From: Zetaproteobacteria bacterium CG06_land_8_20_14_3_00_59_53
GTDB taxonomy: Bacteria > Pseudomonadota > Zetaproteobacteria > Mariprofundales > Mariprofundaceae
Assembly: GCA_002779605.1 (NCBI GenBank)
Contig: PEWE01000002.1
Location: forward strand, 1 to 64,000
Length of the DNA stretch: 64,000 bases
Direction: 5' to 3'
Part shown: positions 2,867 through 36,926 of the stretch, in pieces
Layout of the letters: every line of letters starts with the position of its first letter
Position numbering within the stretch: position 1 is the first letter of the stretch
The notes under the pieces: model-generated
Told to the model about the DNA's origin: nothing
Databases searched by the model: none
What the model saw: only the letters and a program-made list of their open reading frames with translations
Translations under genes and position numbers: made by a program

Positions 2867-5017
2867 GTGAAAGACGACAGCCCGAAACACTATATCCTGC
2901 TGATCAGCATCCACGGCCTGATCCGCGGGCATGAACTGGAACTAGGACGCGATGCGGATACCGGCGGGCAGACCAAGTATGTGCTGGATCTGGCGCGCAG
3001 TCTGGCCTCGCATGAAGCTGTCGAACAGGTGGATCTGGTCACCCGCCGTATCGTGGATAGCTCGGTCAGCGAAGATTATGCGCTGGCTCTTGAGGAACTC
3101 GGGCCGAAGGCGCGCATCGTGCGCATCGATGCCGGCCCCGAAGCTTATCTGCCCAAGGAGCAGCTGTGGGACCATCTCGACAGCTTCACCGATAATCTTG
3201 TGCTCTGGCTGAACGAGCAGCCGCGCATGCCGGATCGTATTCACAGTCATTATGCCGATGCGGGCTATGTCGGTGTTCGGCTGGCCAACCTGCTGGGGGT
3301 GCCGCTGATCCACACCGGTCACTCGCTCGGGCGCGACAAACGCAAGCGCCTGCTGGCCAAGGGGCTTTCCCGCGAAGAGATCGAAACCGCCTACAACATC
3401 AAGCGACGCATCGATGCCGAAGAAGAGGTGCTGGCCAATGCCGCACTGGTGGTGACCAGCACGCGTAACGAGATCGAGGAACAATACGAGCTTTATCAGT
3501 ATTACGATCCGACGCGCATGCAGGTGATTCCACCGGGTACCGATATGCAGCAGTTCCACCCGCCGGGGAAAGACGAGCGGATCGATTTTGCCGCGCAGTT
3601 GATGCGTTTTCTCAAGGAGCCGGATAAGCCCGTGATCCTGGCCCTTTCAAGGCCGGACGAGAGGAAGAACATCCTGACTCTGGTGCAGGCCTACGGTGAA
3701 TCACAAGCCTTGCAGCAGGCGGCCAATCTGGTTGTCGTGGCCGGCACCCGTGAGGATATCCGCGAACTGGAGACCGGCGCGCAGAAGGTGCTGACCGATA
3801 TCCTGCTGCTGATCGATGCCTACGACCTGTACGGCAGGGTTGCGGTGCCGAAACATCATCGTCCCGACGAGGTTGCCGAGATCTACCGGCTGGCGTCCGC
3901 CAGCTTCGGCGTGTTCGTGAATCCGGCACTGACCGAGCCCTTCGGCCTGACCATTCTTGAAGCCGCTGCCAGCGGCTTGCCTGTGGTGGCCACCGAAAAT
4001 GGCGGTCCGGTGGATATCATCGGTAACTGTCACAACGGTGCTCTGGTGGACCCGCTCAATCCTGCGGCGATCCGCGATGCCCTGCTGGGCCTGCTCAATG
4101 ACCGGAACCGATGGAAGCAGGCCTCGCGCAACGGCATCGAGGGTGTGCGCAGGCATTACACATGGCGCGCACATACCGACAGCTATATGCAATGTATCGC
4201 CAGCCTGCAGGGTGATGTGCAGCCGGTGCCGGTGCATCAGCCGGTGCCGGGCGTCAGGATGTTCAGGGATCGCGCGCTGTTCACCGATCTGGATCAGAAT
4301 CTGCTGGGCGATCCGGGATCCCTGCAGCAATTCTCCGATGCGGTGCGTCACAACCGCAAGCAGGTGAGCTTCGGTATCGCCACCGGTCGGCGCATCGATT
4401 CGGCGCTGGCGGTGCTGAAGAAATACCATATCCCGCAACCGGACATCCTGATCAGCAGCATGGGGACGCGCATCCACTACGGCAAGGTGCTGACCGAAGA
4501 CGATTACTGGACGGAGCATATCGACCATGACTGGAAGCGGAACCGCATCAGGAATGTGATGGGCAGATTGCCGGGTATCGCCTTGCAACCCAATGCCGAG
4601 CAGAGCGAGTTCAAGATTTCCTACTACTACGACCCGCAGCAGGCGCCTTCTGTGGAGGAGATCATCGCCCTGCTGCGCCAGCGGGAGATCAATGCCAATG
4701 TGGTGTATGCCTTCGGACAGTACATCGACATCGTGCCTTCGCGTGCATCCAAGGGTCAGGCGCTGCGTTATGTGATGCAGCGTTTCGATATCGCGCTGGA
4801 TCATGTGCTGGTGGCCGGCGGTTCGGGTGCCGATATGGACATGATGCGCGGCAACACACTCGCCGTGGTGGTGGCCAACCGTCACCATGAGGAATTATCC
4901 GAACTGGAAGATCTCGAGGGCGTGTTGTTCGCCAGACAATCGCATGCTGCAGGCATCCTTGAAGCTGTGGATTATTACGACTTCTTCGGTCGCTGTGCAC
5001 CTCCGGATACCGAATGA
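2867..5017 (+). CDS. sps: Sucrose-phosphate synthase with degenerate HAD domain
   Basis: This cytoplasmic enzyme joins UDP-glucose and fructose-6-phosphate to sucrose-6-phosphate. The first 460 residues or so form a GT4 glycosyltransferase: the early GGQTKYVLDLARSL glycine loop, HSHYADAGYVG, and TEPFGLTILEAAASGLPVVAT near residue 350. The last 250 residues are a HAD phosphatase-like domain, as in other two-domain synthases (716 residues in all). That domain looks catalytically impaired: motif I reads DLDQN where an active enzyme has Thr at the last place (about residue 472), and motif IV reads GGSGAD instead of GDSGND (about residue 650). The start is GTG at 2867 behind a strong AAAGGAGG. It overlaps the next gene by four bases. 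Confidence 0.93.
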   Translation: MKDDSPKHYILLISIHGLIRGHELELGRDADTGGQTKYVLDLARSLASHEAVEQVDLVTRRIVDSSVSEDYALALEELGPKARIVRIDAGPEAYLPKEQLWDHLDSFTDNLVLWLNEQPRMPDRIHSHYADAGYVGVRLANLLGVPLIHTGHSLGRDKRKRLLAKGLSREEIETAYNIKRRIDAEEEVLANAALVVTSTRNEIEEQYELYQYYDPTRMQVIPPGTDMQQFHPPGKDERIDFAAQLMRFLKEPDKPVILALSRPDERKNILTLVQAYGESQALQQAANLVVVAGTREDIRELETGAQKVLTDILLLIDAYDLYGRVAVPKHHRPDEVAEIYRLASASFGVFVNPALTEPFGLTILEAAASGLPVVATENGGPVDIIGNCHNGALVDPLNPAAIRDALLGLLNDRNRWKQASRNGIEGVRRHYTWRAHTDSYMQCIASLQGDVQPVPVHQPVPGVRMFRDRALFTDLDQNLLGDPGSLQQFSDAVRHNRKQVSFGIATGRRIDSALAVLKKYHIPQPDILISSMGTRIHYGKVLTEDDYWTEHIDHDWKRNRIRNVMGRLPGIALQPNAEQSEFKISYYYDPQQAPSVEEIIALLRQREINANVVYAFGQYIDIVPSRASKGQALRYVMQRFDIALDHVLVAGGSGADMDMMRGNTLAVVVANRHHEELSELEDLEGVLFARQSHAAGILEAVDYYDFFGRCAPPDTE

Positions 5018-5859
5018 AGCCGCTTCTGATCTGTACCGATCTTGACCGGACGCTGATTCCCAATGGTCCGCAAGCGGAGTCGCCCGGGGCGCGCAAGCGC
5101 TTTGCTGCACTCGTCGCACATCCGGATATCAGTCTGGCCTATGTCAGCGGGCGGCATCGTGCGCTGGTCGAACAGGCCATCGAGGCATACAGCCTGCCGG
5201 TGCCGGATTTCGTGGTAGGGGATGTGGGCACGACCATCTACCGTGTCGGGCCGGCGCAGGCATGGCAGCATGATGATGTCTGGGAGGCGAAGATTGCCGC
5301 TGATTGGGCAGGCTTCAGTCATGCCGCATTGGCGCTGTTGCTGGCGGATGTAGCGGGTCTTCGTGTGCAGGAGGCCGAGAAGCAGAATCGTTGCAAGCTC
5401 AGCTACTACACGCCGATGGATGCGGACTTCACGGCTCTCTCCGGACTGGTTGCATCCCGCTTGGGAGATGCAGGCATCCGCTGCAGGGCGATATGCAGCA
5501 TCGATGAGGAAGCCGGCTGTGGTCTGCTCGATATCCTGCCGCAAAGCGCCAGTAAGCTGCACGCCATCGAATGGCTGATCCATGGCAAGGGGTTCGATAT
5601 GGCGCACAGCGTATTCTGCGGCGACAGCGGCAACGATATGGAGGTGCTGACAAGTGCGGTGCCCTCGGTGCTGGTCGCCAATGCCTCCGATGATATCCGG
5701 GCACAGGCCATGCAGCGGGTTGCAGAGACAGGGCATGCCGAGACGCTTTATATCGCCAGCGGGGACTTTATGGGCATGAACGGCAATTATGCAGCGGGCA
5801 TGCTGCAAGGCATCGCGCATTTTCATCCCGACACGCTTGCATGCATGGGGGTGAGCTGA
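5014..5859 (+). CDS. spp: Sucrose-6-phosphate phosphatase (HAD-IIB)
   Basis: The 281-residue enzyme removes phosphate from sucrose-6-phosphate, making the pathway irreversible. Unlike the HAD domain of the preceding synthase, all motifs are intact: DLDRTL near residue 9 (nucleophile and acid/base aspartates plus Thr), SGR near residue 47, and CGDSGNDMEVL near residue 205. It overlaps the synthase by ATGA at 5014-5017 and the kinase by TGATG at 5857-5861, so the three genes are translationally coupled. The intact/degenerate pairing implies that this protein does the dephosphorylation while the synthase's own domain is structural or regulatory. Confidence 0.92.
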   Translation: MKPLLICTDLDRTLIPNGPQAESPGARKRFAALVAHPDISLAYVSGRHRALVEQAIEAYSLPVPDFVVGDVGTTIYRVGPAQAWQHDDVWEAKIAADWAGFSHAALALLLADVAGLRVQEAEKQNRCKLSYYTPMDADFTALSGLVASRLGDAGIRCRAICSIDEEAGCGLLDILPQSASKLHAIEWLIHGKGFDMAHSVFCGDSGNDMEVLTSAVPSVLVANASDDIRAQAMQRVAETGHAETLYIASGDFMGMNGNYAAGMLQGIAHFHPDTLACMGVS

Positions 5860-6764
5860 TGGCGCAGCGCTATCCGACCATCTTCGGTGAGGTGTTGTTC
5901 GATTGCTTTCCGGGCGGTGAACAGGTGCTGGGCGGTGCGCCGTTCAATGTCGCCTGGCATCTGCAGGCCTTCGGTGAATCGCCGCTGTTCATCAGCCGGG
6001 TGGGAAACGACACGCAGGGGAACGAGATCCTCGACGCCATGCTCAAATGGGGCATGCGCACCGATGGTGTGCAGATCGATGCGCAGCTTCCGACCGGACG
6101 GGTGGATGTGTCGTTCAGCGATGGCGAACCGGCTTATGACATCGTGCATCCCAGTGCCTGGGATGCCATCGCCCCGTGTGAAACAAGCGGCGATTGCAGG
6201 TTGATCTACCACGGCTCGCTGGCGCTGCGGGATGCAGGATCGCGTGCGGCACTGGCGCAGTTCAAAGCGCAGGGCGATCCGGCGGTGTTCCTCGATGTGA
6301 ACCTGCGTTCCCCGTGGTGGCGCCGGGACGGGGTGGCCGGTCTGCTGGAAGGTGCCGACTGGGTGAAGCTGAATACTGACGAATTGGCGCTGCTTTCGCC
6401 TTCGGGTGATGCACGCGATGTCATGGCTGAGCATGGACTGCAGGGCCTGATTCTGACGCATGGCGCGGACGGGGCGGAGATTCTGACGGTTGCAGGGGAA
6501 ACGCTCCGCATCAGGCCGGCAGTCACCACACAGGTGGTTGATACCGTCGGGGCAGGGGATGCCTTTGCCTCGGTGATGCTGCTTGGGATGCTCAGGGGAT
6601 GGCCGATGGCGACGACTGCCGGACGGGCCCAGGATTTCGCCAGCCGCATGGTCGCCCGACGCGGCGCTACGGTCAGCGATCCCGGTTTTTACGATGAGGT
6701 GATGAGCGATTGGCTTGCCGATGATATGACACGCGATCAGCCACAGGAGTCCACGCATGTATGA
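5859..6764 (+). CDS. Fructokinase, PfkB family
   Basis: This sugar kinase probably phosphorylates the fructose released by amylosucrase, returning it as fructose-6-phosphate to the synthase. PfkB features are GEVLFDCFPGGEQVLGGAPFN at the N-terminus (a sugar-binding Gly-Gly-Ala), FLDVNLR, and the catalytic signature DTVGAGDAFAS near residue 230. I prefer the ATG at 5859, which overlaps the phosphatase stop and has GGGGGTGAG just upstream, over the in-frame ATG at 5841; this gives 301 residues. Substrate preference for fructose is inferred from the operon and the family. The 3' end overlaps the amylosucrase start by eight bases. Confidence 0.88.
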   Translation: MAQRYPTIFGEVLFDCFPGGEQVLGGAPFNVAWHLQAFGESPLFISRVGNDTQGNEILDAMLKWGMRTDGVQIDAQLPTGRVDVSFSDGEPAYDIVHPSAWDAIAPCETSGDCRLIYHGSLALRDAGSRAALAQFKAQGDPAVFLDVNLRSPWWRRDGVAGLLEGADWVKLNTDELALLSPSGDARDVMAEHGLQGLILTHGADGAEILTVAGETLRIRPAVTTQVVDTVGAGDAFASVMLLGMLRGWPMATTAGRAQDFASRMVARRGATVSDPGFYDEVMSDWLADDMTRDQPQESTHV

Positions 6765-8718
6765 ACAGATCTCGCATTCGCTGCTGAACCGGATTCTCGA
6801 TGAGCTGAAGCCCGAGATCAGGGTGCGCGACCTGCGCCATTTCTATACCCGTCTGGGCGCCAATTTCTATGCCATCTATTCGCTGTTCCATTACCTGTAC
6901 GGCAAGCGCGATGATTTTGACCGGCAGATGCTGCGTCTGGTCGAGGTGATGGCACTGAACTACATCCGGCGTGATAAGGCGTTGAAAAAGCTGGATATCG
7001 AGCGCGAGGCGGGCCACAACTGGTTTCTGAGTCAGGAATGGGTCGGCATGGCCCTCTACAGCGACGGATTCGCAGGGGATCTGCAGGGCCTGCGCGGCAG
7101 GCTGGGATATCTGCAGGAACTCGGCGTGAACATGGTGCATGTGATGCCGATCCTGCAATGCCCGCAGGGTGCAAGCGATGGTGGTTATGCGGTGAGCAAC
7201 TTCCGTGATGTCGATGATCGCGTCGGCACCCTGGATGATCTGCGTCAGCTGTCTTCGGACATGCGCAAACGCAAGGTGTTGCTGACGCTCGATGTGGTGG
7301 TCAATCACACCTCCGATGAACATGAGTGGGCGGTCAAGGCGCGGGCCGGAGAGCAGAAATATCAGGACTACTACTACATCTTCGATAACCGCGATGTACC
7401 CGATATGTTCGAGGAGACCATGCCGGAGATTTTTCCGGAAAACGCTCCGGGGAACTTCACCTTTAACGATGCCATGCAGAAATGGGTGATGACGGTGTTC
7501 AACAACTACCAGTGGGACCTGAATTACAGCAACCCCTCCGTGTTCATCGAGATGATCGACATCATCCTGTTCTGGGCCAATCAGGGTGCGGATATCCTGC
7601 GCATGGACGCCGTCGCCTTCCTGTGGAAAAAGATCGGCACGCGCTGCCAGAACGAGCGCGAGGCGCATCTGATCCTGCAGCTGATGAAAGACTGCTGTCA
7701 GGTGACCGCACCCGGCGTGCTGTTCATCGCCGAGGCGATCGTTGCTCCCGTGGAGATCATCAAATATTTCGGTGAAGATGCGGTGATCGCCAAGGAATGT
7801 GAGATCGCCTACAACGCCACCTTCATGGCGCTGCTCTGGGATGCCGTGGCGACCAAGAATGCCAAGCTGCTCAATCAGGGGATACTCAGTCTGCCGAACA
7901 AGCTGGATCGCGCGACCTGGCTGAATTATGTGCGCTGCCATGATGATATCGGTCTCGGTTTCGACGATGTCGATATCCGGCAGGTAGGCTACGAGCCGTT
8001 CGCCCACCGCAAGTTTCTGGTCGATTATTTCACCGGTGTGTTCGACGATTCCCCGGCGCGCGGGCAACCCTTCGGTCACAACGAGAAAACCGGCGATGCG
8101 CGTATCTCCGGAGAACTGGCCTCACTGGTCGGTCTGGAAAAGGCGCTTGAGCTTGGTGATGCCGAGGCCATCGAGCACAGCATCCGGCTGATCCTGCTGG
8201 TGCACGGCATGATCATGTCGTTCGGCGGTATTCCGCTGCTGTATTACGGTGACGAGATCGGAACCCTGAACAACTACGGTTTTACAAATGACGCGAACAA
8301 GGGCGGGGACAGCCGTTGGATCCACCGCCCGGTCATCGACTGGGAGCGGGCTGAACTGCGACACAAGCGCGGAACCGCCGAGCAGCGTATCTTCGACGGG
8401 CTGAAAAAGATGATTGCGGTACGCAAGTGCATCTCCGCTTTTGCCGACTACAACAACCGCGAACTGCTGGTGACGGATAACCCTCATCTGTTCGTGTTCA
8501 TGCGCAGCGATCCTTTCAGGCAGGGCGAGGATGTGCTGGTGGTGGGTAACTTCGATGCCATGCCGCAGTCGCTGACGCTGGGTGAACTCGGCAAGAGTAT
8601 CTGTTTCGATCCGGCCAGATTGCGTGACCTGAACAGCGGCGAAGCGCCGCGGCTGTTCAAGGATCAGCTGGTTGTACCGCCTTACAGCTTCTACTGGTTG
8701 AGCGACGCGCGGCTGTGA
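6757..8718 (+). CDS. ams: Amylosucrase (GH13 glucan-forming sucrose transglucosidase)
   Basis: Amylosucrase transfers the glucose of sucrose onto an alpha-1,4-glucan and releases fructose. The 653-residue protein matches the family in length. It has the GH13 barrel motifs: DVVVNHT, ILRMDAVAF with the nucleophile Asp at about 284, FIAEAIV with the acid/base Glu at about 326, and RCHDDIG with the transition-state Asp at about 396. These sit almost where the corresponding residues lie in characterised amylosucrases. There is no signal peptide, so it works on cytoplasmic sucrose. It is the last gene of the operon, overlaps the kinase by eight bases, and is followed by a strong terminator. Confidence 0.92.
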   Translation: MYEQISHSLLNRILDELKPEIRVRDLRHFYTRLGANFYAIYSLFHYLYGKRDDFDRQMLRLVEVMALNYIRRDKALKKLDIEREAGHNWFLSQEWVGMALYSDGFAGDLQGLRGRLGYLQELGVNMVHVMPILQCPQGASDGGYAVSNFRDVDDRVGTLDDLRQLSSDMRKRKVLLTLDVVVNHTSDEHEWAVKARAGEQKYQDYYYIFDNRDVPDMFEETMPEIFPENAPGNFTFNDAMQKWVMTVFNNYQWDLNYSNPSVFIEMIDIILFWANQGADILRMDAVAFLWKKIGTRCQNEREAHLILQLMKDCCQVTAPGVLFIAEAIVAPVEIIKYFGEDAVIAKECEIAYNATFMALLWDAVATKNAKLLNQGILSLPNKLDRATWLNYVRCHDDIGLGFDDVDIRQVGYEPFAHRKFLVDYFTGVFDDSPARGQPFGHNEKTGDARISGELASLVGLEKALELGDAEAIEHSIRLILLVHGMIMSFGGIPLLYYGDEIGTLNNYGFTNDANKGGDSRWIHRPVIDWERAELRHKRGTAEQRIFDGLKKMIAVRKCISAFADYNNRELLVTDNPHLFVFMRSDPFRQGEDVLVVGNFDAMPQSLTLGELGKSICFDPARLRDLNSGEAPRLFKDQLVVPPYSFYWLSDARL

Positions 8719-33444: not shown

Positions 33445-34029
33445 TTACACTTCACTCAGGGCAAAAGCCTTGACCTGATCGAAGGGGAGATGGTCGCCTT
33501 CATCCTTGCCGTAGTAGGCGGTGCGGATGATGCCGCGTTCATCGACAAGGAAATCGGCGGGCATGATGGTCATGTCGCCTTTGATGCGGGTCGGGAGATA
33601 GCCCTTGGCCATGGCCTTGATGAGCGTGGGCATGCGGGTGACCATACCCTTGAGCACACCGGATATGGAGCGCTCGATGGCATATTCGCGGTAGTAACGG
33701 GCTTCTTCGTCGGCCAGCACGGGAAATATGGCATCATGCCCGGAGACATAGCGTTGCAGATTTTCCAACGGAGAATGAAAAATGGCGACAATGCTGAAAC
33801 TCCCCCCAAGCTTGCTGTAATTGCTCACCAGCTCATGCATGCGCAGATTGCAGAACGGGCAGGCTGCAAAGCGGAAGAAGGAAAGCATGTAGCGTTGACC
33901 GCGCATGGCTTCGAGGCTGAAAGTGGAGCCATCGATGGCGAAGAGCGTGATGGGCGTGACCTTATCGCCCGCTTTCTTTTTTCCGTGCATGTTTTCTGAG
34001 TCAGTGTTTGCGGTAGTGCTCGAATCCAT
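33445..34029 (-). CDS. Peroxiredoxin-like (AhpC/TSA family) protein
   Basis: A 194-residue thioredoxin-fold protein. The key motif is FRFAACPFCNLRMHEL (about residue 55), a CxxC at the place where AhpC/TSA-like proteins keep the peroxidatic Cys. DFLVDERGIIRTAYYGKD completes the fold. I place the start at ATG 34029, because GAGGAG sits eight bases upstream, inside the end of the pentaheme cytochrome gene; the overlap is 29 bases. No signal peptide is visible, so it is probably cytoplasmic although co-transcribed with three exported proteins. Function may be peroxide removal or thiol exchange. Confidence 0.78.
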   Translation of the reverse strand: MDSSTTANTDSENMHGKKKAGDKVTPITLFAIDGSTFSLEAMRGQRYMLSFFRFAACPFCNLRMHELVSNYSKLGGSFSIVAIFHSPLENLQRYVSGHDAIFPVLADEEARYYREYAIERSISGVLKGMVTRMPTLIKAMAKGYLPTRIKGDMTIMPADFLVDERGIIRTAYYGKDEGDHLPFDQVKAFALSEV

Positions 34030-35224
34030 CGAATGGCTCCTCATGCTCATAAAGTTGGTAATCGTTCTGCTCGGCACCGTCCTGTGCCAGTAGAATCAGC
34101 CGGCCAGCATCGCCCTGTAAACCTTCGTCCAGCAGATCGCGGTACAGGCCTTTGTAGAAGTTGTCTGGGATGACATCCACGCGGAAACGAACGGAGCGCG
34201 CCTGCGAGGGCAGGGCTGCCAGTTCATACGATCTTTTCTCGCCGGGCAGCATGCGGGTGTCGCTGATCTCCTGCCAGCCATTGTCATAAGCCACATGGCG
34301 GCCGATTTCCCATTCTTTCTGCTTCAATACATTCCCCTGTGCATCCAGTGCTTCGATGCTTACAGTCACCTTCGGCGTGACATATGTGGGGAAGGCATGG
34401 CCAATGCGGATTGATGCGATGCTGAGGCTGGCTGTTCCGTGATCAATGCCGGATGCAATATCCAACCCTTCGCGTACTGTGGCGGGGTCGTGGATGCCTT
34501 TGAAAAGATGTTTCCTGTCAGGCATGTGACAGCTCTGACAGTGCACACCTTCGCTGGCAAAGCGACTCTGCTTCCATTCTTCCATAGTGTTCTCCAGCGG
34601 CTTGCCGTTGATGGCGTATTCCTCGGGGAATTGGTGGCAGGACGCGCAGAATTGCGATTGTTCGAATTCCTTGCTTCCGGTGAAGCCGCCATGTGCGGGT
34701 CCGTCGATCTTGCCTGACCGGCCTGTATTCCGCTGCGGAGGGCCGAAGCGCTGCCAGCCGCGCACATGGCAGGCCGCGCATGTAACCCCTGCATGGCGTA
34801 GCGGCAGGTGGGAATTCCGAAGCTCCGCATCACTGTTAAAACCCTGCTGCTGTTGCAGCTTAAGTTTCAGCGAGGCCGTTAATTGCTTCATATCCTTATA
34901 TTTCTGCTCGGCCAGTGGTGCGTGGCACTTCAGACAATCATTGTTGTCGCTTAGATCCTGTTGCGGAAACTGGCCGATCAGACCGGGCGAGAAGGCGCGG
35001 GCATGCATGCTGGCTTTCCAGTCAGCGAATTGCGCCGCGTGGCACTGGGCGCATGCCTCGGGCGAAAGATCACGCTCTATCGCCTGCCAGTCGTGCGGTG
35101 AAGCGCCTTCAGTGGCCGCAGGATGGCTCCAGTAGGCCGCGGGCAGATCTGCGTGCACAGCCGCAGCCGTTAAGGCGATACCGGCGATTCCAAGGGCGAG
35201 CGGAGCAAACAGCTTTCTGAGCAT
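34001..35224 (-). CDS. Exported pentaheme c-type cytochrome
   Basis: A 407-residue protein with a signal peptide (MLRKLFAPLALGIAGIALTAAAVHA). It carries five CxxCH heme sites: CAQCH (58), CLKCH (97), CAACH (149), CASCH (193) and CQSCH (229). Heme spacing and flanks (EGVHCQSCHMPD) resemble cytochrome c554-type multiheme proteins. The last 170 residues have no heme site and look like a beta-sandwich (SIRIGHAFPTYVTPKVTVSIEA). It should carry electrons in the periplasm. The ATG at 35224 starts the signal peptide; the frame is open further upstream but not coding-like. The electron partner is unknown. Confidence 0.82.
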   Translation of the reverse strand: MLRKLFAPLALGIAGIALTAAAVHADLPAAYWSHPAATEGASPHDWQAIERDLSPEACAQCHAAQFADWKASMHARAFSPGLIGQFPQQDLSDNNDCLKCHAPLAEQKYKDMKQLTASLKLKLQQQQGFNSDAELRNSHLPLRHAGVTCAACHVRGWQRFGPPQRNTGRSGKIDGPAHGGFTGSKEFEQSQFCASCHQFPEEYAINGKPLENTMEEWKQSRFASEGVHCQSCHMPDRKHLFKGIHDPATVREGLDIASGIDHGTASLSIASIRIGHAFPTYVTPKVTVSIEALDAQGNVLKQKEWEIGRHVAYDNGWQEISDTRMLPGEKRSYELAALPSQARSVRFRVDVIPDNFYKGLYRDLLDEGLQGDAGRLILLAQDGAEQNDYQLYEHEEPFDGFEHYRKH

Positions 35225-35269
35225 GGATATATATTTCCCGGTATGGTTTGGAATGGCAGGGCAAACACT

Positions 35270-35311
35270 GGGCGGCACATGCGGGAGGGAGGGAGGATGC
35301 ATGCGCCGCCC
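35270..35311. other. Long hairpin with G-rich loop between cytochrome genes
   Basis: Two 13-base arms (GGGCGGCACATGC and GCATGCGCCGCCC) pair with one mismatch. The loop on the plus strand is GGGAGGGAGGGAGGAT, a repeat of G-runs. It lies between the monoheme stop and the pentaheme start in the transcribed minus strand, where no T-run follows. Confidence 0.6.
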
Positions 35312-35317
35312 GTCCGG

Positions 35318-35821
35318 TTAGCGATGTTCGCGCTGGTACTGTATGCGGTATGCCCGATAGAAGGCGGCCATGGCGGTCAATTCTTTCGAATTGGCATCGA
35401 ATGGCTTTCCCTGCATCGGATTTAGCATACAGAAGTTGATCATCTGATCGAGAGTGACCACATCGCCGACCATCTCGACATAGTGCGGGAAGGTCTGGTT
35501 TTTATCGAAGTGCAGACGCTCAAAACCGGAATGGCAGGACAAGCAGGCCACACCCGCCTTCCCCAGCGATTCATCCTTCCACATTGAAGCACCGGTATCG
35601 GCTGCCTGGCGGAAACTTTGGAAGGCATGCTCGCGGATCATGGCGCGCCCGTTGGCATCGGTCAGCCTGCCGTCGGTTTTCATGCCGCCACCCGGGTTGC
35701 AGGGGTTGGCGATCGGCTTTATCGAGCATGGATTGCACGGGTTGGCGGTCTGCGCTTGCAAAGGAGCGGCCATTGCCAGCATGGCGAAGGCCACCGAGGA
35801 TAGTGTCGCAATTTTCTTCAT
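35318..35821 (-). CDS. Exported monoheme cytochrome with N-terminal NPC repeats
   Basis: A 167-residue protein with a signal peptide ending LQAQ. The mature N-terminus holds three Asn-Pro-Cys units (residues 27-29, 30-32 and 39-41). One heme site, CLSCH, lies at 93-97. The C-terminal part (INFCMLNPMQGKPFDANSKEL) resembles the distal region of SoxA/TsdA-type cytochromes, where Met or Cys can bind heme iron; Cys 131 or one of the Met residues is a candidate ligand. AAGGAAG precedes the ATG, 12 bases after the NPC-repeat gene. Its NPC repeats match those of that neighbour, which suggests the two proteins interact. The function is not known. Confidence 0.8.
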   Translation of the reverse strand: MKKIATLSSVAFAMLAMAAPLQAQTANPCNPCSIKPIANPCNPGGGMKTDGRLTDANGRAMIREHAFQSFRQAADTGASMWKDESLGKAGVACLSCHSGFERLHFDKNQTFPHYVEMVGDVVTLDQMINFCMLNPMQGKPFDANSKELTAMAAFYRAYRIQYQREHR

Positions 35822-35833
35822 GGCTTTTCTTCC

Positions 35834-36109
35834 TTAGTGCTGACTGCACGGATTATTCGACTTCATCATGTCCATGCTGCCCGTATCGCATGGATTCCCG
35901 TGTTTTTTGCTATTCTTCATATCCTTCATCTCTTTCATATCGCACGGGTTGGGGTTCTTGCCCATGTCGCATGGATTATGCTTTTCCATACTTTTTATAT
36001 CGCAGGGATTGCAGGGGTTGTGGTTGTCTGCCACGGCTGTGCCGGAAAATCCGAGCATGGCCATCAGTGCGATGGCGGGGATAATGTTAATCATACGTTT
36101 TCTATTCAT
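35834..36109 (-). CDS. Small exported protein with six NPC repeats
   Basis: A 91-residue protein. After the signal peptide (ending GTAVADN) the mature chain is built from Asn-Pro-Cys units: NPCNPCD, HNPCDMG, NPNPCDM, GNPCDTG and NNPCSQH, six in all. Lys, Met and Asp fill the spacers. I know no named family with this layout. Cys and Met density suggests metal (copper or iron) or heme-related binding, or surface disulfide cross-linking. GGAGGAAAACC precedes the ATG at 36109; upstream frame is not coding-like. It is the first gene of the cytochrome operon. A small 5-bp hairpin lies at 36141-36155 in the presumed leader. Confidence 0.78.
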   Translation of the reverse strand: MNRKRMINIIPAIALMAMLGFSGTAVADNHNPCNPCDIKSMEKHNPCDMGKNPNPCDMKEMKDMKNSKKHGNPCDTGSMDMMKSNNPCSQH

Positions 36110-36263
36110 GGTTTTCCTCCAATCGGTTGGGTTGCTAGCTCCCGCAGTACGCGGGTTCAGGGAAGTTGTCGGCGCGTGATTTGATATCTTACAGGGCAGA
36201 ATGTTCGCCCTTATCGGAAAAGCCTGCGGTTGACTCCGTGTCGGCCTGATTGAGAGTACCGGC

Positions 36264-36926
36264 ATGGATATCAACGCGATTCTTCACGGGATAAGTATCT
36301 GGGCGCTGCCGGTGATGCTGGCCATCGTGCTGCATGAGGTGGCGCACGGCTGGATGGCCGACAAGCTGGGCGACGACACGGCGCGCTGGATGGGAAGGCT
36401 CACGCTGAATCCCATCAAGCATATCGATCCCATCGGTACGATCCTGGTGCCGGCGATGCTGCTGGTGTTCGGCTCGCCGATCCTTTTCGGCTATGCCAAA
36501 CCGGTGCCGGTGAACTTCCGCAAGCTCAGGCACCCCAAGCGCGACATGGTGTGGGTGGCGCTGGCCGGTCCTGTCACCAATGTGCTGCTGGCGATTGCCT
36601 CGGCGGCGCTGCTGGCCCTGATGGTGCAGCTTCCGGAGGATATGGTGTGGCTGGCGCAGCCTGTGGCCTCGATGTGCCAGGCCTCGATCATCATCAATAT
36701 GGTGCTGTGCATCTTTAATCTGATCCCGTTGCCGCCGCTGGACGGGGGCAGGGTGGCTGTCGGTCTGCTGCCGGGGCGGCTTGCCTACTATGTGTCCCGC
36801 ATCGAACCGTATGGTTTCATCATCATCGTGGCGCTGCTGTTCATGGGAGTGCTGCAACAGATCATCGGCGGACCGGTGATGGGCAGTGCCAATTTCCTGA
36901 TCAATGCGGCCATGGGCACAGGCTGA
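36264..36926 (+). CDS. Site-2 protease family membrane metalloprotease
   Basis: A 220-residue multi-pass membrane protein of the M50 family, related to short rhomboid-like site-2 proteases. The zinc site is HEVAH (about residues 24-28) plus NLIPLPPLDGGRV (about 153-165), whose Asp is the third zinc ligand. A conserved AGPVTNVLLAI segment lies between. It has no PDZ domain, unlike RseP encoded downstream. The substrate is unknown. GAGAG lies eight bases before the ATG. It stands alone between the divergent cytochrome operon and rpsB. Confidence 0.87.
   Translation: MDINAILHGISIWALPVMLAIVLHEVAHGWMADKLGDDTARWMGRLTLNPIKHIDPIGTILVPAMLLVFGSPILFGYAKPVPVNFRKLRHPKRDMVWVALAGPVTNVLLAIASAALLALMVQLPEDMVWLAQPVASMCQASIIINMVLCIFNLIPLPPLDGGRVAVGLLPGRLAYYVSRIEPYGFIIIVALLFMGVLQQIIGGPVMGSANFLINAAMGTG

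Follow-up and report, generated by a model that had tools for sequence, protein, structure and literature searches.

A conserved two-cytochrome module associated with Asn-Pro-Cys repeat arrays in Zetaproteobacteria and other lineages

Which genes of a four-gene run encoding two cytochromes and cysteine-repeat proteins belong together, and what might they do? The run (positions 33445-36109, minus strand) lies in a window of 64,000 nucleotides, the whole stretch of DNA analysed here, from contig PEWE01000002.1 of a Zetaproteobacterium of the Mariprofundaceae. It encodes a small protein with Asn-Pro-Cys (NPC) repeats, a monoheme cytochrome bearing the same repeats (hereafter NPC-cytochrome), a pentaheme cytochrome, and a redoxin. 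A first-pass annotation of the sequence had proposed that the shared motif marks the first two proteins as partners in an electron-transfer chain, perhaps for metal binding or docking at the cell surface. All four genes are present as it described them (six NPC; three NPC and one heme; five hemes; an overlapping redoxin), and its view that NPC repeats and cytochromes belong together was borne out by the comparisons below. It had overlooked that the monoheme protein is a cytochrome of the SoxA/TsdA fold and Cys-ligated type, and that the pentaheme is of the c552/ExtKL family. Both cytochrome families are known; their combination and the NPC arrays were found nowhere described in literature searches, in agreement with the annotation, which knew no named system with this gene set.

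Conservation and family of the two cytochromes

The conserved core of the run is the two cytochromes. Both occur in 54 loci of Zetaproteobacteria, "Deltaproteobacteria" and Nitrospirota, where they share a strand throughout, are mostly no more than 230 bp apart, and often overlap. Larger gaps (370-3431 bp) were found in five zetaproteobacterial loci, one of which has two extra genes between the cytochromes; these encode proteins of 592 and 465 aa (L086 1655-6896, genome G021). NPC repeats are present on all NPC-cytochromes of the 54 loci but that of L096, which has a broken frame. Among 78 zetaproteobacterial genomes, the search for the NPC-cytochrome retrieved relatives in 39, or 36 once hits confined to the NPC or signal-peptide part and a single weak hit were dropped, and the pentaheme accompanied the NPC-cytochrome in 36/36; these associations, like the locus counts, are uncorrected for kinship. 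The same search also yielded 31 loci, which by name comprise one of Mariprofundaceae and others of Deltaproteobacteria, Nitrospirae, Nitrospinota, Tectomicrobia, and other metagenome-assembled genomes. The distance matrices of the two cytochromes are correlated (r=0.95 overall, 0.84 within Zetaproteobacteria, and 0.93 outside), and 0 of 2000 permutations reached the observed value, within Zetaproteobacteria or outside; the pair therefore travels together. The pentaheme was also present in 40 of the 43 zetaproteobacterial genomes bearing NPC arrays. This association and that of the NPC-cytochrome with the pentaheme were the strong ones of those tested, and the association of the NPC-cytochrome with MNIO genes, discussed below, was not strong; all three are uncorrected for kinship.

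The monoheme protein is a half-SoxA/TsdA domain with a heme predicted to be His/Cys-ligated. It is a member of the SoxA/TsdA domain PF21342 in Pfam (E=6e-13, 49 bits against a cut-off of 27). Its best sequence-profile match was SoxA (PDB 1h31, E=1.9e-14), TsdA was also matched, and its AlphaFold model, confident at residues 60-167, gave SoxA and TsdA as the best fold matches. All 55 NPC-cytochromes match the SoxA model, the window's protein over the N-terminal half only (TIGR04484; profile positions 5-86 of 212), where its 43 bits against a cut-off of 110 place it outside the SoxA family itself. It carries NPC cysteines at positions 29, 32, and 41, the heme motif CLSCH at 93-97, a predicted distal ligand (C131), and invariant M117, M127, and M136. 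In the TsdA alignment, H97 and C131, which are invariant in 55/55 sequences, correspond to the heme ligands of the active site, His53 and Cys96 (PMC6879331). The residues that hold thiosulfate in TsdA (Arg109, Arg119, and Ser127 in precursor numbering, offset by 27 from the mature protein; PMC4423706), in contrast, align with invariant M117, M127, and P135. The protein thus appears to keep the type of reactive heme site while losing the known substrate pocket. Canonical thiosulfate chemistry is therefore unlikely, and identity as a thiosulfate dehydrogenase (TsdA) was rejected because the active-site residues differ. The NPC-cytochrome resembles the N-terminal domain of SoxA (SoxAX) in its CXXCH and aligned conserved Cys, but it is single-domain, without the catalytic half and without a SoxX/SoxYZ partner, and it has NPC tails and a pentaheme as its pair. 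It has the domain fold of TsdA (PDB 4wq7, 4v2k), but lacks the second cytochrome domain.

The pentaheme cytochrome can be assigned to the cytochrome c552/ExtKL (PHC) family from its five CXXCH motifs and modelled fold. The model (predicted local distance difference test 91) matched the pentaheme c552 of Thermochromatium tepidum best (PDB 5ze8; Foldseek E=1.8e-16, TM 0.58-0.61), and a profile of 49 pentahemes matched pentaheme c552 (4e-17) and MccSep (9wt8; 5e-17). With these proteins and ExtKL of Geobacter it shares its domain order, a CXXCH heme domain ahead of a beta domain that carries a GHxxP-like motif. It differs in its link to NPC proteins and in scoring 60 bits against the ExtKL equivalog NF040886, under the curated cut-off of 250, and neither the porin ExtI nor ExtM/N was found as a recurrent neighbor. 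All five CXXCH are kept across the 49 pentahemes, together with five further His (H74, H178, H239, H245, and H276; four invariant, one 96%), as would be expected for five bis-His hemes. MccSep-like selenocatalysis was rejected, as an invariant Tyr (Y281) is found about where Sec325 of MccSep sits. The c552/ExtKL family is related to the archaeal nanowire AvECN, and a role in extracellular electron transfer has been proposed for ExtKL of Geobacter (PMC11976967). The likeness of the window's pentaheme to AvECN-type cytochrome nanowires would be one of family kinship, drawn only through the literature (PMC11976967).

NPC arrays and their carriers

The mature small protein has six NPC motifs in 64 residues and the cytochrome tail three in 27; neither number was ever matched in 200,000 composition-preserving shuffles of each (shuffle means 0.10 and 0.09, respectively). 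The small protein, which the first-pass annotation had left to profile searches, matched nothing in Pfam and NCBIfam above cut-off. When NPC genes adjoining cytochromes were listed, a free NPC gene was found within 1.5 kb of the NPC-cytochrome in 22 of the 58 loci having enough upstream sequence; homologous NPC genes were located upstream of the NPC-cytochrome in 14 of 30 zetaproteobacterial loci, and in 8 of the 28 remaining loci they lay in its vicinity. Free NPC proteins also adjoin the pentaheme where the NPC-cytochrome is missing (L099, L145, and L159).

Apart from cytochromes and free peptides, NPC repeats occur on a protein with a lipobox and, in one zetaproteobacterial genus, as the C-terminal tail of an OmpA-domain (PF00691) protein with a lipoprotein-like sequence (L143 237-1130, L148 5191-6108). 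Outside Zetaproteobacteria, the NPC-cytochromes bear NPC repeats ahead of the heme domain and, in many cases, also behind it. The arrays are modular. The NPC part of the monoheme cytochrome is of low confidence and disordered-looking in the AlphaFold model. Being disordered-looking and carried by a cytochrome, a free peptide, a lipobox protein, and an OmpA-domain protein, the arrays behave the way a tethering or scaffolding segment would. The cell-surface docking suggested in the annotation is upheld in one part: a surface location is plausible, given the arrays on OmpA-domain and lipobox proteins.

Two long arrays were observed outside the window. The NPC-cytochrome at L045 7563-8462 has 32 NPC, almost all in a perfect NPCAA array, and scores above the cut-off of the NCBI model NF038108, named for the "Cys-every-fifth RiPP peptide CefA" (RiPP, ribosomally synthesized and post-translationally modified peptide). 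That at L056 7194-8789 has 35 NPC, and toward its C-terminus a hydrophobic stretch rich in glycine precedes RRRNK, resembling a cell-surface sorting signal.

Literature searches on NPC-repeat cytochromes and on CefA returned nothing relevant except CdeC of Clostridioides difficile. This protein has a 6-NPC repeat, and it self-assembles in an ordered way that relies partly on disulfides (PMC7677010). It is an exosporium protein without cytochromes, and the likeness is an analogy of motif with no homology claimed.

Locus layout and neighboring genes

The genes of the run (Table 1) are separated by 12 nt and 93 nt and end in a 29-nt overlap, the redoxin start lying inside the pentaheme gene. For the pentaheme, the ATG at 35224 is a likelier start codon than that at 35302. 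The flanking genes, uvrB and an M50 peptidase, are on the opposite strand. A simple promoter and terminator scan was uninformative and revealed no sigma-70-like site on the minus strand of the divergent intergenic region.

Table 1. Features of the NPC and cytochrome run, in window coordinates
Feature	Position	Strand	Description
NPC-repeat protein	36109-35834	-	91 aa; Sec signal peptide; six Cys, each within an NPC
NPC-tailed monoheme SoxA/TsdA-fold cytochrome	35821-35318	-	167 aa; three NPC directly after the signal peptide, then one CXXCH
Pentaheme cytochrome	35224-34001	-	407 aa; five CXXCH
Redoxin, AhpC/TSA-type, SelL-related	34029-33445	-	194 aa; CPFC motif; without signal peptide; accessory, outside the conserved core
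Divergent intergenic region, 154 bp	36110-36263		Where the promoter of the run is expected; the M50 peptidase gene, on the + strand, begins at 36264

The redoxin is an AhpC/TSA-superfamily relative (PF00578, E=1e-15) that scores 68 bits against the SelL-related model NF040769, below its cut-off of 120. Because no signal peptide is evident in it, a cytoplasmic location is predicted, in contrast to the other three proteins. Its family was found in 7/78 zetaproteobacterial genomes and near the unit in three. The annotation had placed the redoxin in the electron-transfer chain; by its distribution it was rejected as a core partner, and it is a local accessory.

In Mariprofundus-like and a few other zetaproteobacterial genomes, the unit follows genes for ArsS (a radical SAM protein), a peroxiredoxin-like protein, and ArsM. 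ArsS and ArsM, often with the peroxiredoxin-like gene, stand directly upstream of the NPC genes in L070, L076, L078, L082, L087, L090, and L099. ArsS was found in 63/78 zetaproteobacterial genomes, with or without NPC genes; it is on another contig in the window's own genome and elsewhere in the genome in about half of the other carriers. No ArsS was seen beside the unit outside Zetaproteobacteria. ArsS and ArsM were rejected as obligate partners or NPC maturases, since ArsS is common regardless of NPC genes and was not seen beside the unit outside Zetaproteobacteria. A Crp/Fnr regulator is located on the same strand in nine loci outside Zetaproteobacteria. Elsewhere in the window, positions 2867-8718 hold a cluster for sucrose synthesis and use, composed of a sucrose-phosphate synthase with a phosphatase domain, a second sucrose phosphatase, a PfkB-family kinase, and an alpha-amylase/amylosucrase-like gene.

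Possible functions of the module

The run contains a real, conserved two-cytochrome module with modular Cys arrays. Our inference on its function goes no further than electron transfer outside the cytoplasm, with tethering through thiols or metal. The reading that we favor, on which our judgement is evenly balanced, is that the core acts as a periplasmic or surface electron-transfer module with the NPC Cys arrays as tethers. The half-SoxA/TsdA monoheme, with its predicted His/Cys heme, would exchange electrons with the pentaheme "wire", whose hemes are all predicted to be bis-His. The tethers would be flexible NPC arrays, present on the monoheme protein and again on a companion that is free or lipid-anchored, and disulfide or soft-metal (e.g., copper) thiolate links could hold the cytochromes to each other and to the envelope. 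The arrays may also present a thiol or a metal for the Cys-ligated heme to oxidize or reduce, and the redoxin would be an accessory. The pairing of the genes, the conserved residues, and the folds are observed; contact between the partners, the direction of electron flow, and the role of the NPC arrays are inferred.

Several observations weigh against this reading. In ten zetaproteobacterial genomes that hold the pentaheme the NPC-cytochrome is missing, so the former can work alone or with another partner. Within the sequence available, the NPC-cytochrome was found without the pentaheme in seven stretches from outside Zetaproteobacteria (L033, L035, L037, L040, L042, L051, and L055), of which L040 and L051 are cut by a contig end and L042 belongs to a genome with a second, paired copy. 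Furthermore, no porin or other trans-envelope partner recurs near the unit, so that the exit or entry of electrons is not accounted for.

Cysteine-ligated cytochromes of the SoxA family are known for thiosulfate chemistry. The NPC-cytochrome could act like SoxA or TsdA in sulfur-compound oxidation, joining thiosulfate or other sulfur species to a thiol, with the NPC Cys replacing the SoxY carrier arm and the pentaheme replacing the second heme or SoxX as acceptor. The retained domain and catalytic-type Cys ligand are consistent with such a role, as are the NPC arrays, which put many thiols on the same polypeptide, and TsdA forms a cysteine S-thiosulfonate on the aligned Cys (PMC4423706). However, the thiosulfate-holding residues are replaced by Met, Met, and Pro, the SoxA match covers the N-terminal rather than the catalytic half, and in the window's own genome neither SoxY nor another SoxA/TsdA domain that could supply that half was found. 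This role is considered unlikely.

It also seems improbable that the module handles soft metals, with the NPC arrays buffering periplasmic Cu(I) or similar metals and metalloids, arsenic among them, while the cytochromes oxidize the bound element or draw off its electrons. In that case the module would resemble a redox-coupled metallothionein or be analogous to bufferins. The dense Cys with Met, Asp, and Lys spacers, the three invariant Met alongside the invariant Cys at the predicted heme site, and the ArsS and ArsM genes adjoining the unit in many Mariprofundus-like genomes point in this direction. MNIO (PF05114) genes (L174, L177, L179, L182, and others; genomes G071, G060, G062, and G003) were present in 10/42 zetaproteobacterial genomes without the NPC-cytochrome and in 0/36 with it (Fisher p=0.0014, uncorrected), and most MNIO loci are bufferin-type operons with a DUF2282 peptide. 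This exclusion is a weak hint of overlapping metal-handling roles, but it falls to p=0.047 in the strictest subset, the complete genomes of one family, and is uncorrected for kinship. Moreover, ArsS occurs irrespective of NPC genes and was not found adjoining the unit outside Zetaproteobacteria, and no metal transporter recurs as a neighbor.

Zetaproteobacteria are Fe(II) oxidizers, and the module might serve this lifestyle or electron transfer to minerals outside the cell. The kinship of the pentaheme to Geobacter ExtKL and nanowire cytochromes (PMC11976967) argues for such a function. On the other hand, the pair is missing from about half of the zetaproteobacterial genomes, including several that are 99% complete (G046, G048, and G055), and therefore does not belong to the core of iron oxidation. 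The unit also has no linked porin. We regard this role as distinctly unlikely.

That the NPC proteins are RiPP precursors with enzymatically modified Cys is very improbable: NF038108 has two NPC-cytochromes (42 bits for one of them, the cut-off being 30) and one zetaproteobacterial locus among its matches, and the radical-SAM ArsS adjoins the unit in some Zetaproteobacteria, but outside that class there is no recurrent maturase within about 6 kb, ArsS is common regardless of NPC, and the window's own NPC protein falls below the model, the best score in its genome (13.9 bits) lying elsewhere on the contig. Across 398 genomes of the phylum, the CefA model had one match only at E<=1e-6, in a zetaproteobacterial genome. 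Maturation of NPC proteins by MNIO enzymes was rejected, as these are absent from all 36 NPC-cytochrome genomes. CefA and the bufferins (MNIO RiPPs) resemble the NPC proteins as exported Cys-repeat peptides, but the NPC unit has no recurrent maturase, and the CefA model may be naming unmodified tether proteins.

A bolder form of the electron-transfer reading can be envisaged, although we consider it a long shot. The disordered NPC arrays shared by the Cys-ligated half-SoxA cytochrome, the free or lipid-anchored peptides, and the OmpA-type proteins might cross-link or bind metal to form a thiolate scaffold that carries electrons to or from the nanowire-family pentaheme, which would constitute an undescribed form of wiring outside the cell membrane in several phyla.

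A SoxA-type heme site with its substrate residues swapped for Met is steadily paired with a wire-type pentaheme and Cys arrays, both in Zetaproteobacteria and in lineages of several phyla from groundwater and vents. Whether this combination reflects a new substrate or a novel principle of anchoring in extracytoplasmic electron transfer can be put to the test, and the combination also provides a functional hook for "hypothetical" NPC-repeat proteins and for the CefA label of NCBI.

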